Of a DNA stretch of 64,000 nucleotides, positions 26,806 through 34,605 are shown in pieces. The translations under genes and the position numbers were made by a program. Each line of letters begins with the position of its first letter. The stretch's first letter is position 1. The DNA lies in the NCBI RefSeq assembly GCF_034531395.1, contig NZ_JARVCO010000010.1, positions 868,001 through 932,000 on the forward strand, written 5' to 3'. A model generated the notes under the pieces. It was not told the origin of the DNA. It did no database searches and was given only the letters and a program-made list of their open reading frames with translations. Origin of the DNA: Pontiella agarivorans. Lineage in GTDB: Bacteria > Verrucomicrobiota > Kiritimatiellia > Kiritimatiellales > Pontiellaceae.

Positions 26806-29800
26806 TCAGGCCGCCCAGCGTTTTCCGTGGGCGGCGAAGTCGACGACGAGTTCGTAGATTTTGTCGCAGCGTTCTTTGAAATCGCGGCGGTCGTAGCTCT
26901 CCGGCAAATTTTCGTCGAGTACGGTTTCAATGGCTTCCTTGACGCGCCGCTGGGTCTGGCCGTCTTTCCACCAATCCTGCACCAGCACTTTCGGGTGGGC
27001 CTGCAGCAGGCGGATGATCAGGCGTTTGGCTGCAAGCTTCACCTCCTGCTCCTCGGCCTGGGTCAGTTTTTCTTTTCTTAATAGATCGTAGAGTTCCAGC
27101 TCGTCTTCGCTCAGTCCTTCGCGGATATAGCGCTCATCCTCCTCCTTCAGGCTTTCGGAAAATTTCATCAGCTCCTCGAAATAGTTTTCCGTGGAGCTGC
27201 CTCCCGCATTGTAGCGGTCGATAATCTCCTGAAGCTTCTGTACAAACTCGGTACGGGTCTGATTCTGTTCCATCATTTTCCGGAGCTTGTCTTCGATGAA
27301 GGCCTTTACTTCCGCGATTTCAATATTCTTATATTCCGCCTCTTTGAACTCCTCGCGCAGCTTTTCAAAATTGATGCTGCTCAGATCGAGCGCCTTGCCT
27401 TTCCGGACAATCTGATAGTGCGCCTGATGCTCCTTTGCGGAAAATTTTTCGGCATCATCCACCACCAGACTTTCATCCAGCAGCTCGCCGACCTTCCGGA
27501 TCACTTCATCAATGTTCGCTTCGTCGAGGTGCGAATCCACCACGCCGCGCAGATACTGCGCAATGCCGATGAGCGGATCCAGGTTACGGTTGAATACCTC
27601 CGGCTTGCAGGCCTCGTAAAGAGAAGAGAGCGTGTTTTCGTAGACGTTGAATGTTTTCCGGTGGTCATCGTTGCCCAGCAGGATGTCGGCATACTGCTCG
27701 AACAAGGCAATATTTTTAAAGGTATCGCCGCTCTCCAGTACCGCCCGCAGATGAACGCCCTTTTCGGAGCACCACGTCTCGGTTTCCTGAACGGCTTCAT
27801 CGAGCAACCGGAACAGCTCCTTCTTTTCCCGTACGGGCGGCTTCGTGTCGGCTTCGCCCTCCGCATAATCCTTCAGCGCCTTTTTCATGTTGCGGAACAC
27901 GTTGTAGTAATCGACCAGTTCGCCGTTGTTCTTTTCAATCAGCTCGCCGTTGTGTCCCCGGATGCGGTATGCCGCAACGCGGTTGGCGCGGGCGATCGTC
28001 TGCATCAGCGTATGGTCTTTCATCGGTTTGTCGAGATAGAGCGTTGATACCGTCGGTGCGTCAAATCCGGTCAGCCACATACTGCAGACAAAGACCAGCT
28101 GCAGCGGGTGCTCCGGATCCTTGAAATTGAATTCAATGTCATGTCCATTGGCATCCAGCTGTTCCAGCCGCCTGATGTGCGGCGCAAGATCGAGACCGGC
28201 CTTTTCGAACTTTTCCTTGTCGGCCGAAGGATCGCTGATGACCACCGCCATCTCCACCTGTTTCATAAACGCGACAATCTTTTTGAACCGCGCCTTTTCA
28301 ATATCGTTGTGCGTGGTTTGGATCAGGCCGCGCAGGCGTTTGATTTCTTCTTTCCAGTGGTGCTGCACCTTGTTGTACATTTTTACGGCGGTAAACTTAT
28401 CCACCGTCACCACCATGCCCTTGCCCAGATAGCCGCGCCGCGGGAAGTGGTAGACGATATCCTTCGCAATCGTGTCGAGCCGGTCGTCGCGCACAATCAC
28501 CTGCATTTCCTGGGCAAATCGTTTTTCGAGCTTTTCCTGCTGGGCTTCATCGAGGTTTTCATCTTCGAGCAGTTCATAAAATTCCTCGCTCAAATCCTCA
28601 TTCCGGATCAGCATTTCCGGCACGCGCTTTTCGTAAAAGAGCGGAACCGTTGCGCCGTCATCCGCCGCCTGCTGGAAGTTGTATTCCGAAACATAGTCGC
28701 CGAACCACGCATTCGTTTTGCGCTGCCGACCCAGCAGCGGCGTACCCGTGAAGGCGATAAAATGCGCGCCCTTCAGCCCCGCGCGCATATTTTCCGCCAG
28801 GCTCCTGTATTGTGTGCGGTGCGCCTCGTCCACCATCACGACCACTTCGCGCTGTTCCTTGTCGGGATCGAACAGCGGAGGATATTTCTTCCCTTTGTCA
28901 TAGCGGAACTTCTGGATCAGCGTGAAAACCACCTTTTTATTCTGGCCGAGAAACTTCCGCATCTCCACCGCGTTCGACGGCTGTGCCGCATCATTTTCCG
29001 CCACCGTGCCCGTATGCAGGAAATTGCGGTAAATCTGCCCGTCCAGATCCGTGCGGTCGGTTACCACCACAAAGCTGAAATTACCCGTCACTTTGCGGAA
29101 AATCTTGCGCACGTAGAAAATCATCGAAAAGCTTTTGCCCGATCCCTGCGTATGCCAGAACACACCCAGTTTGCCCTCCAGCTCGTCCCGGTTCAGGAAA
29201 CGTCCAAACGCCTGGTTCACGCCGATAAACTGATGGTTCTGTGCAATGATCTTCGTCTCGCCCTTGTGGAACAGAATAAAGTTTTCCACATAGTCCAGCA
29301 AATGGGCAGGGGCGCACAGCCCCGCCGCCGCACGTTCAATGCTCGTGCCTTTCTCGCGGATCGTTGCGCGGTCGACCGCTTCCTTTTCATCCGCCACCCG
29401 CAGCCAGCTGAAAAAATGCTCCCAGCCCGCCGTAAAACTGCCCACCTTCGTTTCAACCGCGTTGGAAAGCAGGCAAAACGCATTGCAGTGGAACAGCTGC
29501 GGAATATCGTGTTTATAGTTCTTCAGATTGTCGTCGAATGCCGAGCGCAGTTTGATGTTGGAATTCTTCAACTCAATAAACACCAGCGGCAGACCGTTCA
29601 CATACAGGATCACATCCGGACGGCGATACGCCGCATACGGTGCCTGCACCGTCGTTTTGATCCAGAGCTGGGAAACCGCCAGATAATGGTTTTTCGCTGG
29701 ATCATCAAAATCAATCAGCCGAACCCGTTCATGCTGCTTCACGCCATCGGCATCGTCGAATTCCACCGCAACGCCGTCACGGATCAGGCCGTCCAATTCG

Positions 29801-30093
29801 CGGTTGGCCGCGATCGGACTCATCGCGGCGCGCCGATCCATGATTTTCGGGATAACCTGTGTTTCGATGACCTCCGCCGGAATAGCCGGATTCAGGGCAA
29901 TGCACGCTTCGCGCAGGCGGTCGGCCAGCACCACATCGCGTTTATCCGTGCGCCCCGAATCATCCTTTAAATCGTCAGGCGAGGCGGTGAAACAATTCAG
30001 GGTATCAAAGCCATGCACATGCTGCAGACGCTGCAGCAGCGCCTGCTCGATCTCGTCTTCGCTAATGATATTAGGTGGCATGTTGAAATCCAT
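26806..30093 (-). CDS. hsdR: Type I restriction enzyme, R (motor/nuclease) subunit
   Basis: A 1095-residue HsdR. It has an N-terminal endonuclease domain (YRRPDVILYVNGLPLVFIEL, PD-ExK-like), then the helicase motor: HTQGSGKSFSMIF (Walker A), VMVDEAHRTQY (DEAH), FIAFTGTPLLG, SMWLTGFDAPTVSTLYLDKP and TIARANR. A long C-terminal helical part binds the methylase core. The start is uncertain: TTG at 30120, ATG at 30093 and ATG at 30081 are in frame, none with a clear ribosome site, and 30093 is chosen as the first ATG. It is separated from hsdS by an inserted transposase gene on the other strand, so it may need its own promoter. Confidence 0.93.
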   Translation of the reverse strand: MDFNMPPNIISEDEIEQALLQRLQHVHGFDTLNCFTASPDDLKDDSGRTDKRDVVLADRLREACIALNPAIPAEVIETQVIPKIMDRRAAMSPIAANRELDGLIRDGVAVEFDDADGVKQHERVRLIDFDDPAKNHYLAVSQLWIKTTVQAPYAAYRRPDVILYVNGLPLVFIELKNSNIKLRSAFDDNLKNYKHDIPQLFHCNAFCLLSNAVETKVGSFTAGWEHFFSWLRVADEKEAVDRATIREKGTSIERAAAGLCAPAHLLDYVENFILFHKGETKIIAQNHQFIGVNQAFGRFLNRDELEGKLGVFWHTQGSGKSFSMIFYVRKIFRKVTGNFSFVVVTDRTDLDGQIYRNFLHTGTVAENDAAQPSNAVEMRKFLGQNKKVVFTLIQKFRYDKGKKYPPLFDPDKEQREVVVMVDEAHRTQYRSLAENMRAGLKGAHFIAFTGTPLLGRQRKTNAWFGDYVSEYNFQQAADDGATVPLFYEKRVPEMLIRNEDLSEEFYELLEDENLDEAQQEKLEKRFAQEMQVIVRDDRLDTIAKDIVYHFPRRGYLGKGMVVTVDKFTAVKMYNKVQHHWKEEIKRLRGLIQTTHNDIEKARFKKIVAFMKQVEMAVVISDPSADKEKFEKAGLDLAPHIRRLEQLDANGHDIEFNFKDPEHPLQLVFVCSMWLTGFDAPTVSTLYLDKPMKDHTLMQTIARANRVAAYRIRGHNGELIEKNNGELVDYYNVFRNMKKALKDYAEGEADTKPPVREKKELFRLLDEAVQETETWCSEKGVHLRAVLESGDTFKNIALFEQYADILLGNDDHRKTFNVYENTLSSLYEACKPEVFNRNLDPLIGIAQYLRGVVDSHLDEANIDEVIRKVGELLDESLVVDDAEKFSAKEHQAHYQIVRKGKALDLSSINFEKLREEFKEAEYKNIEIAEVKAFIEDKLRKMMEQNQTRTEFVQKLQEIIDRYNAGGSSTENYFEELMKFSESLKEEDERYIREGLSEDELELYDLLRKEKLTQAEEQEVKLAAKRLIIRLLQAHPKVLVQDWWKDGQTQRRVKEAIETVLDENLPESYDRRDFKERCDKIYELVVDFAAHGKRWAA

Positions 30094-30127
30094 TAAACAG
30101 GAAAGGGCCGGGCGGCGCAAAAAGAAA

Positions 30128-30142
30128 TTCCAACCCTTGGAA
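30128..30142 (+). repeat. Dispersed palindrome copy, intergenic, upstream of the transposase-like gene
   Basis: TTCCAACCCTTGGAA, 30 bp before the start of the HUH/Y1 transposase-like gene. Its spacer is the same as in the copy at 26452-26466. Confidence 0.7.
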
Positions 30143-30148
30143 AGGCAT

Positions 30149-30180
30149 CTTTTTCATGCTACCCCTTTTTTATGAAAAAG
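30149..30180 (+). promoter_or_regulatory. Hairpin that encloses the start codon of the transposase-like gene
   Basis: CTTTTTCAT (30149-30157) pairs perfectly with ATGAAAAAG (30172-30180), and the latter is the start codon plus two Lys codons. The loop is 14 bases. It may be a translation control or a REP-like end. Confidence 0.5.
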
Positions 30181-31140
30181 GGCGCATACGATTCGGAAAA
30201 GCATCACAGAAGATCGATTCGGCTGAAGGGGCATAATTATGCGGGCGGCGGCCTTTATTTCATCACGATCTGTGCGCATCGGGAGGCCATCGCGGCCATG
30301 CAGGGCAAACCCTTTATGCACATGAAAGGGCTCATTGAGGAGCGCATGGCCATTACCGCCGAGAAAAATCCGCAGATGCAATGGGGTGAATGGGTGATTA
30401 TGCCCGATCATTTTCATGCGCTCATTCGCATCCGCAAAGGGGGCTCCCTCGATTTGGGGAATATCATTGGCGGCTTCAAGGCCGCCGTTTCCCGGGAATG
30501 GCGCAGGGGCAAGGCAGGCCTTGAGGGCAAGGCAGGCCTTGAGGGCAAGGCAGGCCTTAGGGGCAAGGCAGGCCTTGCCCGTACGGGCGGGATCTATCCC
30601 GCCCCCAATTCCGCCCTTTCCCGAAAAATGCGCATCTGGCACCGCAATTATTATGAAATGATTGTGCGCTCGGAAAAGGCGGAGGCGAAAATTGCGGAAT
30701 ATATCCGGATGAATCCCTGGCGCTGCGTGCAGGATTTCGGCAATGGCCTGCGGGGCATGGGCAACCCGGTGCTGTGGAATGCCGAGAAGCTCGGCGTGCT
30801 TTGCAGCCGCAATGCGCCGCGGCCGGATCGCATTCCGAAGGCGGCGGCCTATTTCAGCGGCTTCCATTCGCCGATGGAAAAGGAAATCCTTGAAAAGCTG
30901 CTGGAGCACAAGCACCCGATCATCTGGTGTCCGGCGTGGGGGTTGGGGAGCAGGCTCGGTGCGCCCCTGCTGGAAGCCCTGGAAGAAAATCGGATGCTGA
31001 TTCTGGAAATGCGCGATACGGCGGGCAATCTGGCCGCGGCGGAAGCACGCAACCGCTTTGTGCTGAAACATGCGGACCAGCGCTGGATTCCGCATGTGAC
31101 ACCCGGCGGGATGCTGGATCGGCTGTTGCACGAAGGGTAG
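30172..31140 (+). CDS. REP-associated tyrosine transposase-like (Y1/HUH) protein with C-terminal extension
   Basis: A 322-residue protein. The N-terminal part (about 20-185) resembles Y1 transposases of the RAYT type: GGLYFITICAH, MPDHFHALIRI (HUH histidines 80 and 82), HRNYYEMIVRS (candidate catalytic Tyr 160/161) and YIRMNPWRC. Between HUH and Tyr, residues 113-136 are four K-A-G-L-x-G units from an 18-bp tandem repeat. The C-terminal part (about 205-320) has YFSGFHSPMEKEILEKLLEH and HPIIWCPAWGLGS, resembling a DprA/SLOG-type nucleotide-binding fold, but this is tentative. It lies between hsdS and hsdR on the opposite strand. It probably mobilised or processes short palindromes. Activity is uncertain given the insertion. 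Confidence 0.8.
   Translation: MKKGAYDSEKHHRRSIRLKGHNYAGGGLYFITICAHREAIAAMQGKPFMHMKGLIEERMAITAEKNPQMQWGEWVIMPDHFHALIRIRKGGSLDLGNIIGGFKAAVSREWRRGKAGLEGKAGLEGKAGLRGKAGLARTGGIYPAPNSALSRKMRIWHRNYYEMIVRSEKAEAKIAEYIRMNPWRCVQDFGNGLRGMGNPVLWNAEKLGVLCSRNAPRPDRIPKAAAYFSGFHSPMEKEILEKLLEHKHPIIWCPAWGLGSRLGAPLLEALEENRMLILEMRDTAGNLAAAEARNRFVLKHADQRWIPHVTPGGMLDRLLHEG
30508..30579 (+). repeat. Four 18-bp tandem repeats, each hairpin-forming
   Basis: Units start at 30508, 30526, 30544 and 30562. The last, GGCAAGGCAGGCCTTGCC, is an almost perfect palindrome with an AG centre. All units keep the reading frame (Lys-Ala-Gly-Leu-x-Gly). A further inverted repeat, GGGCGGGAT-CT-ATCCCGCCC, follows at 30585-30604. Confidence 0.85.
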
Positions 31141-31161
31141 GGCGCTCTCGCCGAGAACGCC
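31141..31161 (+). repeat. REP-like imperfect palindrome after the transposase-like gene
   Basis: Begins right after the stop codon: outer arms GGCG/CGCC, one C-A mismatch, inner arms TCTCG/CGAGA. The rest of 31162-31258 shows only a short TTTCC-TTC-GGAAA hairpin (31212-31224). Confidence 0.45.
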
Positions 31162-31258
31162 GCACGGGTGTTGGAGCTTTGCGGCGGGCGGACGGGTGAA
31201 CCACTTCGTTATTTCCTTCGGAAATTATCTGCGCTGCGCTTCGGCGAGCCGTCCCTAC

Positions 31259-32527
31259 CTATTCCATGCCCGGCGGGAAGGCGATTTCCAGCTCCTCCAC
31301 CGACAGCGCCCCCGAAATCAATCGAGGTAATAATGCGTTCTTTGTGCGCGTGAGGGTGGCGTTTTGAAGCAGAAGATTTTCAATTTCATCAAAAATCGGC
31401 ATCGAGAGCTTTTTGAATTGATGAATGATATCCTGGGGTGGCGTGAGGATTTCGATGCGCTTGAATGTACCTTTGCTGATTTCCGGGAAGGTGGCACCAC
31501 CGCAAAGGGAAATAAAATAATCCCGGCTTTGCTTGAGCCAGAAAAACAAATAGGGCAATGGATATTGTTCATTTGGAATGCAGGTGATGAAACCTTGGTT
31601 TGTGCAGGCTTCTGTTCTGTTGATTCCCAATTCCCCAATCGTTGCCCTGCTGGTCATCATGATGGAATTTGCGGGGAATATTTTGGCTGAAGAATTTCCT
31701 AGGCCTTCTTCATTGGGCTTGTCTTTTGATTCGGAAAGAAAGATGCCGCTTGAGCCTGTGATGTCGGATGGAGTGTACCAATTGATTTTTCCATCCTTCC
31801 AATAAGCATCTTTATTTTTGGAGGGTGTTCCGCCACCCAGAAACTTGAAGGCTTTTTCAATTTTCACCAGCTCCCACTCCTGAGGGATGCCTTTTTTGAA
31901 GGGGGTGGTTTGGTGGTTGGGGAAGCGGAAGCGGACAAACCATTCGCGGTAGAGCTCTTCCGCCATCTTTTCCAACAACCCAATCCGCCGACGATTATTC
32001 TCTATCAATTCGTCATACGCCGAGAGGATCGCTGCGATTTTTTTCTGATTGGGTAAGGGAGGGAACGGAATGATGAGCTTCTCTGCATCGGGAACGCGAA
32101 CGTGTTCAACGGTTGATCCAGAGCCCAAAGTTTTGAGCTGAGCCTGCAAAGTTGGGCCTTGGAGAGTGTAGTAAAGGAAATGCTGGTCCAGGATGCTTGG
32201 ATCAGCTCGATAAAGCATTGTTCTTTGCCCAAGGAAAACTCTTTCGCTTGTCCGAATGAGACCCACGTCTCCAAGTGGAGCTTCTCTTGTCAGAACAATG
32301 TCTTTTTTTTGCGGTGTTAACCTACGGTTCCATTTGATGAATGTGGCCTCATTAACACAACGCGCATCATCTAAATTGATTCGTCCATTTTTTACATTGG
32401 TTGTGCGAATCATTTTGTATGGAGTTTCAAAATCTACAACGGGCGCAGTTTTATTGATGCAGTCAACAATGTGCGTGCACACCTTGTTTGCTTCTTTCAA
32501 TTTCCAAGTTCGAGGGAATTGGCTCAT
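31259..32527 (-). CDS. hsdS: Type I restriction enzyme, S (specificity) subunit
   Basis: A 422-residue HsdS with two target-recognition domains (about 1-165 and 215-385). Each is followed by a conserved coiled-coil segment: PPLPNQKKIAAILSAYDELI with NNRRRIGLLEKMAEELYREW after the first, and QNATLTRTKNALLPRLISGA after the second. The two domains set the two halves of the DNA recognition site. Which bases they read cannot be told from sequence. Its start overlaps the hsdM stop by one base (TGATG), so translation is coupled. The N-terminal half is richer in A/T than the flanking hsd genes, as is usual for exchanged recognition domains. Confidence 0.93.
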   Translation of the reverse strand: MSQFPRTWKLKEANKVCTHIVDCINKTAPVVDFETPYKMIRTTNVKNGRINLDDARCVNEATFIKWNRRLTPQKKDIVLTREAPLGDVGLIRTSERVFLGQRTMLYRADPSILDQHFLYYTLQGPTLQAQLKTLGSGSTVEHVRVPDAEKLIIPFPPLPNQKKIAAILSAYDELIENNRRRIGLLEKMAEELYREWFVRFRFPNHQTTPFKKGIPQEWELVKIEKAFKFLGGGTPSKNKDAYWKDGKINWYTPSDITGSSGIFLSESKDKPNEEGLGNSSAKIFPANSIMMTSRATIGELGINRTEACTNQGFITCIPNEQYPLPYLFFWLKQSRDYFISLCGGATFPEISKGTFKRIEILTPPQDIIHQFKKLSMPIFDEIENLLLQNATLTRTKNALLPRLISGALSVEELEIAFPPGME

Positions 32528-34605
32528 CAGGAACCTACGATGCTTTCTATGTTCTTGTTGATGATGGTAGTCAGTTTGACGGATTCAGAATTCAGCGCCG
32601 AAAGCTCTTCATTCATTTCCAACAACTCCGCGATAAACTCTTCTTCGGTTTTGCCGTCTTCTTCGATGACGACGCCGACATAGCGGCCGGGGTTGAGGGA
32701 ATAGTCCTGCTCGGCGACTTCTTCGGGCGTGGCGAGTTTGCAGAGGCCGGTGACGTCTTCGTATTCCGCCTTGGGAAAGCGTTCCTGCAGCCAGTGGATG
32801 TGTTTGAAGAAGAGCTCGGCGTTCTTCACTTCGGTATGCAGGGCTTCAAGGGCTTCTTTGAGTTTCTTCAGCGCCCTGTCCGGGCGCTTTCGTTGGGGTG
32901 GCATGGATGCCATCCCTACGGCGCGGACGGTTTGGTCGAGCTGTTTGAGCCCGGCGTGGAGCGATTCAAAGAAGGGGTCGAAGGCTTTTCGCAGTTTGTG
33001 CTGGGCGGTGTTGATGGCGTCGGCGTTTTTCTTTGCGCGGAATTTTCCTTTGGTTTCGGCGGCATAGTCCGCGTGTTGTTTTTGCAGTTGGCCGAGTGCC
33101 TTCCACTGCTTTACCAGCTCGCCGACAGCGCGTTTTCCGGGGTCGTCGTCGAGCACATCAAGGAGCTGTTCGGCAATGGGTTTGACCTGCTTTTCGTTTT
33201 CGGCGAGGGCTTCCAATCCCTGGACAAAATAGCGGTCGATCTGGCGGACAAAGGCGCGGCGGTTGCCGCGGTGCAGTTTGGAGATGAGCGCAATGTTCTG
33301 CACCTGTTCGGCGGAAAATTCGCGGTGGGCGCGGTCGATGGGCGTGAAAATGTTGCGCGCGTCGATGAACAGGATGTTGTCGTCGGTTTTGCCTTTGTCG
33401 AAAAACCAGAGCGTCGCCGGAAGGGTGACGGTGTAGAACATATTGGAGGGCAGGGTGAGCATGCCGTAAATCAGGTTGTTTTCAATCAGCGTGCGGCGAA
33501 TGTCGGCCTCGGAGTGGCGGGCGTCGGAGGCGGAGTTGGCCATGACGAGCGCGGCGCGGCCGTTTTCTTTGAGCGAGGTGGCAAAGAGATTGATCCAGAG
33601 ATAGTTGGCGTTGGGTACGGTTTCCTTGCCCTGTTCGCTCTTTTTGGCTTTGGTCTTTTTGCGCGGAATGCCGTAGGTGTTGAAACGCGGATCGTTTTCG
33701 ACGGTGGCGATCGGCACGTCGTCGACGTTGAAGGGCGGGTTGGCCATCACAAAATCAAATTCGCCGAAGCCATTATATGGATCTTCGGAATAGGAGTTGG
33801 CCTGCCGCACTTCGCCGCGCAATCCGTTCACCGCCAGGTTCATTTTGGCGAGTTTGACGGTGTCGAGCGTTTTTTCCTGGCCGTAGACCGAGATGGAGTC
33901 GCCGTCGTCGGTTTCGCCGAGGGCGGCGAGTTCCCTGCGGTGGTCGTCGATAAAGTGCTGCGACTGGACAAACATGCCGCCGGATCCGCAGGCGGGATCG
34001 TAGACCTTGCCTTTGTAGGGCTCGATCATTTCCACCATCAGCCGCACGACGGAGGTGGGGGTGAAGAATTCGCCGCCGCCCTGGCCTTCCGCCAGCGCAA
34101 AGTTGCTGAGGAAATATTCATAGATTTTGCCGAGCATATCGCCGGAGGCATCGCGCGGAATGTTGGAAAAGGTTTTCAGCAGCCGGGCGGGCAGGGTTTG
34201 GTCGGTGCGGGTGAGCGGGATGTATTCATCTTTCGGCAGCACACCGTCGAGCTCGGGTTTGTATTTTTCGATGTCGAGCATGGCCTCTTTGATGCGTTTG
34301 GCGGTGTCTTCGGACTCGGGCAGGTTGAGTAGATAGTCGTAGCGCGCGTGGTCGGGCAGGTAGAAGCCGCATTGGGCCAGGGCGATTTCCGAAACGGGCT
34401 TTTCGCGCCGCGTGCCTTTGAGTCTGGCATATTCCTCGTGGATTGCCTTTTCGGCCAGCGCATATTTGTTGTCGGCAAATTTGAGGAAGATCAGCCCGAG
34501 CACGGGCGTGGCATATTCGGAGGATTTCAGGTCGGAGTTGGCGCGCAGATTGTCGGCCGCCGCCCAGAGGTCGTTTTCAAGTTGTTTCAGTTGTTCCGAG
34601 GTCAT
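32527..34605 (-). CDS. hsdM: Type I restriction-modification methyltransferase, M subunit
   Basis: A 692-residue adenine-specific methylase. The N-terminal helical domain LENDLWAAADNLRANSDLKS is typical of HsdM. SAM-binding motif VYDPACGSGGMFV and catalytic motif FDFVMANPPFNVDD follow. About 180 extra residues after the core form a helix-rich tail (with LLDVLDDDPGKRAVGELVKQ and RFPKAEYEDVTGLCKLATPE), making it longer than the usual 500-530. It has its own upstream gap shared with the divergent plus-strand operon. It contains a one-mismatch copy of the dispersed palindrome at 33211-33225. Confidence 0.94.
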   Translation of the reverse strand: MTSEQLKQLENDLWAAADNLRANSDLKSSEYATPVLGLIFLKFADNKYALAEKAIHEEYARLKGTRREKPVSEIALAQCGFYLPDHARYDYLLNLPESEDTAKRIKEAMLDIEKYKPELDGVLPKDEYIPLTRTDQTLPARLLKTFSNIPRDASGDMLGKIYEYFLSNFALAEGQGGGEFFTPTSVVRLMVEMIEPYKGKVYDPACGSGGMFVQSQHFIDDHRRELAALGETDDGDSISVYGQEKTLDTVKLAKMNLAVNGLRGEVRQANSYSEDPYNGFGEFDFVMANPPFNVDDVPIATVENDPRFNTYGIPRKKTKAKKSEQGKETVPNANYLWINLFATSLKENGRAALVMANSASDARHSEADIRRTLIENNLIYGMLTLPSNMFYTVTLPATLWFFDKGKTDDNILFIDARNIFTPIDRAHREFSAEQVQNIALISKLHRGNRRAFVRQIDRYFVQGLEALAENEKQVKPIAEQLLDVLDDDPGKRAVGELVKQWKALGQLQKQHADYAAETKGKFRAKKNADAINTAQHKLRKAFDPFFESLHAGLKQLDQTVRAVGMASMPPQRKRPDRALKKLKEALEALHTEVKNAELFFKHIHWLQERFPKAEYEDVTGLCKLATPEEVAEQDYSLNPGRYVGVVIEEDGKTEEEFIAELLEMNEELSALNSESVKLTTIINKNIESIVGS

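Follow-up and report, generated by a model that had tools for sequence, protein, structure and literature searches.

A transposase-like gene within a type I restriction-modification operon

The window (the whole 64,000 nt stretch of Pontiella agarivorans DNA that was analysed) contains a type I restriction-modification (R-M) operon in which a further gene sits between hsdR and hsdS, antiparallel to the hsd genes. This gene, termed RAYT-DprA, is predicted to encode a REP-associated tyrosine transposase (RAYT) fused to a DprA-like domain; the 4.4 Mb genome has one full copy of it, and on contig C7 a remnant that corresponds to 35 residues of the C terminus. The features of the locus, some of which are described relative to the related locus L039 in genome G021, are as follows.

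26806-30120, minus strand: hsdR, type I restriction subunit (PADLOC REase_I, 4e-148; HSDR_N and SWI2_SNF2 matches)
30128-30142, no strand assigned: TTCCA-N5-TGGAA palindrome, TTCCAACCCTTGGAA, marking the left boundary of the segment that has the opposite orientation in L039
30172-31140, plus strand: RAYT-DprA gene, 322 aa, ATG to TAG (open reading frame list, NCBIfam)
30409-30417, plus strand: HUH motif, H80-F81-H82 (alignment and match to TnpA_REP 4er8)
30507-30580, plus strand: four 18-bp palindromic units encoding GKAGLE-type repeats, the last of which alone retains the full REP hairpin
30517-30621, plus strand: insert loop, residues 116-150, predicted to be disordered (AF2 pLDDT below 50)
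30561-30584, minus strand: REP-like element, with a GTAC head (30581-30584) and a hairpin with a 9-bp stem (30561-30580)
30581-30604, plus strand: second REP-like element, GTAC followed by GGGCGGGATCTATCCCGCCC, head to head with the first
30700-30702, plus strand: predicted catalytic tyrosine, Y177, in YIRMNP (Y---NP signature), aligned to Y115 of 4er8
30724-31137, plus strand: predicted DprA-like Rossmann domain, residues 185-322, with GN..L......VLCSR and RNR motifs (AF2, structure searches and profile)
31137-31161, plus strand: GTAG-headed REP-like hairpin supplying the stop codon
31242-31258, minus strand: second GTAG-headed REP-like sequence, at the end of hsdS
31259-32527, minus strand: hsdS, type I specificity subunit (BLAST relatives are the hsdS of other hsd operons; seven members of its neighbour set match Methylase_S)
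32527-34605, minus strand: hsdM, type I methyltransferase, sharing about 87% identity with its L039 counterpart

The transposase core

Sequence comparisons assign residues 1-184 to the RAYT core. NCBIfam REP_Tyr_transpos matches residues 20-184 (E 6.3e-18) with a score of 65.1 bits, which is under the curated cut-off of 80, a naming threshold rather than a biological feature. A profile of homologues was needed for the comparison with the PDB, because a single-sequence phmmer search found 4er8 alone, as a weak match; with the profile, this TnpA_REP structure was reached at an E value of 1.6e-7. The AF2 model, calculated on an alignment of natural homologues, has a mean pLDDT of 82, and its core fold matches that of TnpA_REP (Z 14.4 to 4er8; Foldseek 1.7e-6). 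The family, profile and fold matches therefore agree on the RAYT identity that had been proposed from the letters of the sequence, as they do with the recognition of MPDHFHALI as the HUH motif, present at H80-F81-H82. The catalytic tyrosine had been sought at residues 160/161, but the alignment places it elsewhere: Y177 is predicted to take this role, as it aligns with Y115 of 4er8, which we take to be the catalytic residue of that protein, and is invariant, along with N181 and P182, in an alignment of 31 homologues. The Y---NP arrangement is the signature of class 2 (PMC6006769). Plasmids, when searched, gave a single weak match, limited to the RAYT part.

A DprA-like domain at the C terminus

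Residues 185-322 are predicted with confidence in the full-length AF2 model, and when they were modelled alone, AF2 recovered a Rossmann fold with a pLDDT of 89.2 and a pTM of 0.86. The best structural match to this domain was ShosA (8zva; Z 15.4, rmsd 2.4, 137 residues aligned), which was again the best when the full-length model was used (Z 14.8); the DprA structures 4ljr and 3uqz came second to it (Z about 12), and in the domain search the ShosA and DprA structures stood well apart from unrelated folds. Foldseek also matched the domain to ShosA (8e-6). A profile of the domain alone reached pneumococcal DprA 3uqz (E=0.0027), in an alignment that sets GN..L......VLCSR on the DprA motif GN..LL..VAVVGSR and RNRF on RNRI. 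Hence the DprA/SLOG-like C terminus suspected in the sequence-only reading is supported by AF2, two structure searches and a sequence profile, and on this modelling residues 185-322 are a DprA-like Rossmann domain.

The SAM and winged-helix domains of full-length DprA are absent, with the 138-residue domain ending the protein and the HUH core preceding it. Neither Pfam nor NCBIfam has a match to the C-terminal domain, and nor does the phage collection that was searched. The domain is found in 63 of the 289 genomes of the phylum; in the stronger matches inspected it is mostly fused to HUH, and stand-alone DprA-like relatives are also found (e.g. L292 and L303). Both the fusion of a DprA-like domain to a RAYT and its genomic setting appear to be new, a literature search of partial coverage having found no paper linking RAYTs with DprA or type I R-M.

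REP elements inside the gene

The sequence-only reading had picked out four in-frame 18-bp units and a second perfect inverted repeat (30585-30604). Both are real, and the stretch that they occupy folds strongly: as single-stranded DNA, 30500-30612 has folding z scores of -4.5 on the plus strand and -6.5 on the minus strand, values that none of 200 shuffles equalled. One GTAC serves as the head of both the last unit and the second inverted repeat; the remaining three units are truncated. The insert loop, which falls between helix alphaC (95-117) and strand beta4 (161-164) in the AF2 model, is hypervariable among homologues. The nearest relative, L032, is 84% identical and has one unit, against four in the window gene, which implies that the array has changed in 18-bp steps. 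The GGCAAGGC palindrome is confined to the window gene, with no copy elsewhere in the genome at up to two mismatches.

Homologues were found in 27 of the 43 genomes of the order. A survey of their inserts revealed variation in both sequence and number (e.g. GTAGGGGCGACACGCATGTCGCCCC, CGTAGGGGCGACACGCATGTCGCCCC and CGTAGGGGCGAGGCCTGCCTCG), each having a GTAG or GTAC head and a hairpin. The insertion sites cluster at six places, all in loops, around residues ~49, ~73, ~89, ~134, ~216 and ~263. The 30 RAYT-DprA ORFs contain 60 hairpins (2.15 per kb, versus 0.65 per kb in flanking ORFs), 33 of them with a GTAG or GTAC head, versus 12 of 149 in the flanking ORFs. Exact GGGCGAC-N-GTCGCCC palindromes number 73 in the 43 genomes, and 27 of these lie inside RAYT-DprA genes, in the six loops; as these genes make up 0.037% of the sequence, this corresponds to an enrichment of about 1600-fold, a figure that applies to this one REP subtype and not to the GGCAAGGC subtype of the window, and that counts related genes across the order, such that its nominal p-value overstates independence. 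Many low-copy GGGCGAC palindromes outside RAYT genes bear the same GTAG or GTAC ends. RAYTs from other phyla have 2.80 in-gene hairpins per kb, measured over stop-to-stop ORFs that include some upstream sequence.

Judged by their sequence, the in-frame hairpins are REP elements with GTAG or GTAC heads. In-gene REP insertion is already known, since insertion within the tnpA_REP gene has been reported as a special feature of TnpA_Y1 subclass 2.4 (PMC6006769), and intragenic GTAG REPs have been reported in other genes (PMC3733652). A divergent RAYT clade (L065, L066, L067 and L071) was also observed, in which the insert loop holds a tandem repeat of the GGKEQGH type and the C-terminal domain is a related one.

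Elements around the gene

The REP-like palindrome noted directly after the stop in the sequence-only reading proved to be the GTAG hairpin at 31137-31161, which itself provides the stop; it has no other copy in the genome at up to three mismatches, and so is not a dispersed family. Together with the sequence at 31242-31258 it forms an inverted pair, resembling a REPIN or BIME, on the 3' side of the gene, none being seen on the 5' side. The two ends are joined in the single-stranded DNA fold of 31130-31275 (z -1.8), and a GTAG element also ends the hsdS of L039. Separately, 30150-30181 contains a 9-bp inverted repeat (CTTTTTCAT and ATGAAAAAG) that takes in the RAYT start codon, and is not conserved in L032 or L039.

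The palindrome 30 bp upstream of the gene had been taken for a copy of the hairpins. Instead, 30128-30142 belongs to a separate, genome-wide TTCCA-N5-TGGAA family (consensus TTTCCARNSNYTGGAAA), which has 1146 copies in this genome compared with five for the reversed control. Each of the 43 genomes of the order contains it, in 5 to 2297 copies, mostly within ORFs on a crude ORF call. In three genomes in which no RAYT-DprA homologue was detected there are 767 (G032), 1091 (G033) and 754 (G036) copies. This abundance, and a sequence that differs from that of the in-gene REPs, led us to reject the family as a RAYT substrate.

Association with defence loci

Genes of hsd operons neighbour 12 of the 30 RAYT-DprA loci of the order, in varying positions. 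The equivalent figure for RAYTs without the DprA-like domain is 4 of 68 (Fisher 8e-5), although such nominal p-values overstate independence because several of the 12 loci are orthologous sites in related species, leaving about eight distinguishable sites; in random sequence, a single hsd locus was present across 1.2 Mb (G000, 0.8 Mb; G029, 0.4 Mb). PADLOC and Pfam scans of the neighbours gave family counts rather than calls for each locus, and linkage was therefore scored from BLAST searches that used the hsd proteins of the window and related ones as queries. Across the wider phylum the linkage is weaker, at two to three loci. Other neighbours of RAYT-DprA genes include DISARM DrmD with TmtA, LmuB, a CARF-PDDEXK nuclease, a PD-T4-6 kinase and PDC-M26A. 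No ShosTA-type phosphoribosyltransferase toxin gene is adjacent to the window gene, the immediate neighbours of which are hsdR and hsdS. The association with defence may stem from a general build-up of mobile genes in such islands.

Remnants of the RAYT-DprA C terminus were observed at two loci. One, L068 (G000:C7:406017), is in this genome and is flanked by genes for a DrmD-like helicase and a TmtA-like ATPase; the other, L060 (G018:C134), forms the in-frame end of an hsdM-like ORF. In other phyla, four RAYTs without the DprA-like domain (L179, L184, L190 and L206) directly abut type I R-M genes.

Inversion and cassette exchange

At the same hsdS-hsdR junction in G021, the genome of a related species, the RAYT gene of L039 has the opposite orientation to that of the window: in blastn, the matches at 30128-30287 and 30609-31129 run counter to those of the two flanks. 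The dS values between the two loci are 0.51-0.59 for the ends of the RAYT gene, 0.50 for hsdM and 0.83 for hsdR. As the RAYT values resemble those of hsdM and hsdR, the RAYT unit probably predates the split between the two species, and was subsequently inverted in place.

Segment 40-153 is non-orthologous between the two RAYT genes (dS 2.4). Throughout the family, identity in the central region is 0.67 within a module type and 0.42 between types, whilst that of the C-terminal region is independent of module type (0.68 within, 0.67 between). The part predicted to recognise REPs has thus been shuffled as a cassette. Locus L032, in G002, shares the orientation of the window and has an intact RAYT gene beside decayed hsd genes, which indicates that the RAYT is not dependent on the R-M genes; comparison of the window gene with this nearest relative gives a dN/dS of 0.18, a sign of purifying selection.

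Proposed mechanism and alternatives

As a whole, the locus is probably explained by a class-2 RAYT that has acquired a DprA-like domain, contains self-inserted REPs and travels as a mobile or invertible passenger of defence loci. From its family and motifs, the HUH/Tyr core would cut GTAG- or GTAC-headed REP hairpins in single-stranded DNA and rejoin them elsewhere, whilst the modelled DprA/ShosA-like fold might hold the single-stranded substrate or a protein partner. REP copies would have entered the RAYT's own coding sequence and persisted where they were in frame and in loops, as the distribution of inserts suggests, with slippage then adding units to, or removing them from, the 18-bp array. 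Were the RAYT to act mostly on nearby DNA, this would explain why REPs are rare elsewhere yet strongly enriched in RAYT genes. The unit itself would move or invert as a small passenger within type I R-M and other defence loci, and the mosaic structure of the family is consistent with the REP-recognition segment being swapped by recombination between a constant N terminus and a constant DprA-like domain. REP copies outside RAYT genes are very few, and so ongoing mobilisation is not visible.

It is unlikely, though worth weighing, that the gene has instead been domesticated as an accessory to defence operons, those of type I R-M among them, with the in-gene REPs as passengers. Such an accessory might apply its HUH/Tyr core and DprA-like domain to single-stranded DNA arising during phage entry or restriction; alternatively, by analogy with ShosTA, the DprA-like domain might serve as a sensor or antitoxin. 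The excess of hsd neighbours over RAYTs without the domain fits this account, as do the purifying selection on the gene, its usual location on the same strand as the hsd genes, often 0-10 bp from them, and the closest fold being that of ShosA; DprA homologues are antitoxins in the shosTA, syrTA and rqlHI systems (PMC9122126). However, the window gene is antiparallel to its operon, L032 retains an intact RAYT next to decayed hsd genes, the remnants L060 and L068 in other defence loci resemble losses, and the position within hsd operons varies, with a weaker link in distant members.

Somewhat more doubtful still is that the RAYT and its ShosA/DprA-like domain form a working part of the defence operon, acting on invading or restricted single-stranded DNA, with the in-gene REPs being self-targeting or self-regulating. 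We think it quite improbable that the hairpins are immobile coding repeats, retained as a flexible linker or for autoregulation through mRNA hairpins: they are in frame, often tandem, located in loops and strongly folded, but their sequence types vary by homologue and by site, they have GTAG or GTAC heads, and similar elements with the same ends are found outside the gene. There is very little prospect that the RAYT spread the TTCCA-N5-TGGAA palindrome, as first proposed, for although one copy lies 30 bp upstream of the gene, and in L039 too, the palindrome is unlike the REPs inside the gene, lacks a GTAG head, seems to lie mostly inside ORFs and is abundant where no homologue is detectable.

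Comparison with known systems

The passenger RAYT proposed here most invites comparison with TnpA_Y1 class 2 subclass 2.4, equivalent to RAYT group 4 (Quentin et al. 2018, PMC6006769), with which the window gene shares the HUH motif, Y---NP, a highly variable insert with short repeats and in-gene REP insertions. Subclass 2.4 is described without a C-terminal extension, whereas the window gene has the predicted DprA-like domain, and its variable insert lies between beta3 and alphaC (PMC6006769) rather than between alphaC and beta4, as do residues 116-150 here; some relatives of the window gene bear inserts at ~89 as well. Intragenic GTAG/CGTC REPs and Rickettsia palindromic elements (PMC3733652) likewise lie in frame in proteins, and GTAG elements supply stop codons, but they enter many unrelated genes, whilst here the RAYT gene itself is the dominant host.

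ShosA and DprA (8zva, 3uqz and 4ljr) have the Rossmann core and the GN..LL..V..SR and RNR motifs of the window domain; in contrast to them, the window protein retains the core domain alone, fused to a transposase, and has SGFHSPMEKE in place of the DprA GLA.GID segment. The E. coli TnpA_REP (4er8) has the same core fold, catalytic motifs and GTAG-type REP hairpins, but unlike the window gene has many genomic REPs and neither the DprA-like domain nor the insert array.

For this RAYT clade, the domain represents a concrete additional part, one that may handle single-stranded DNA, and the recurrent defence-operon setting offers an entry point to the role of domesticated HUH transposases. The loci also provide a quantified case of a REP element whose main location is the gene of its presumed mobiliser, a pattern relevant to the way in which REPs spread and to why RAYTs persist as single copies.
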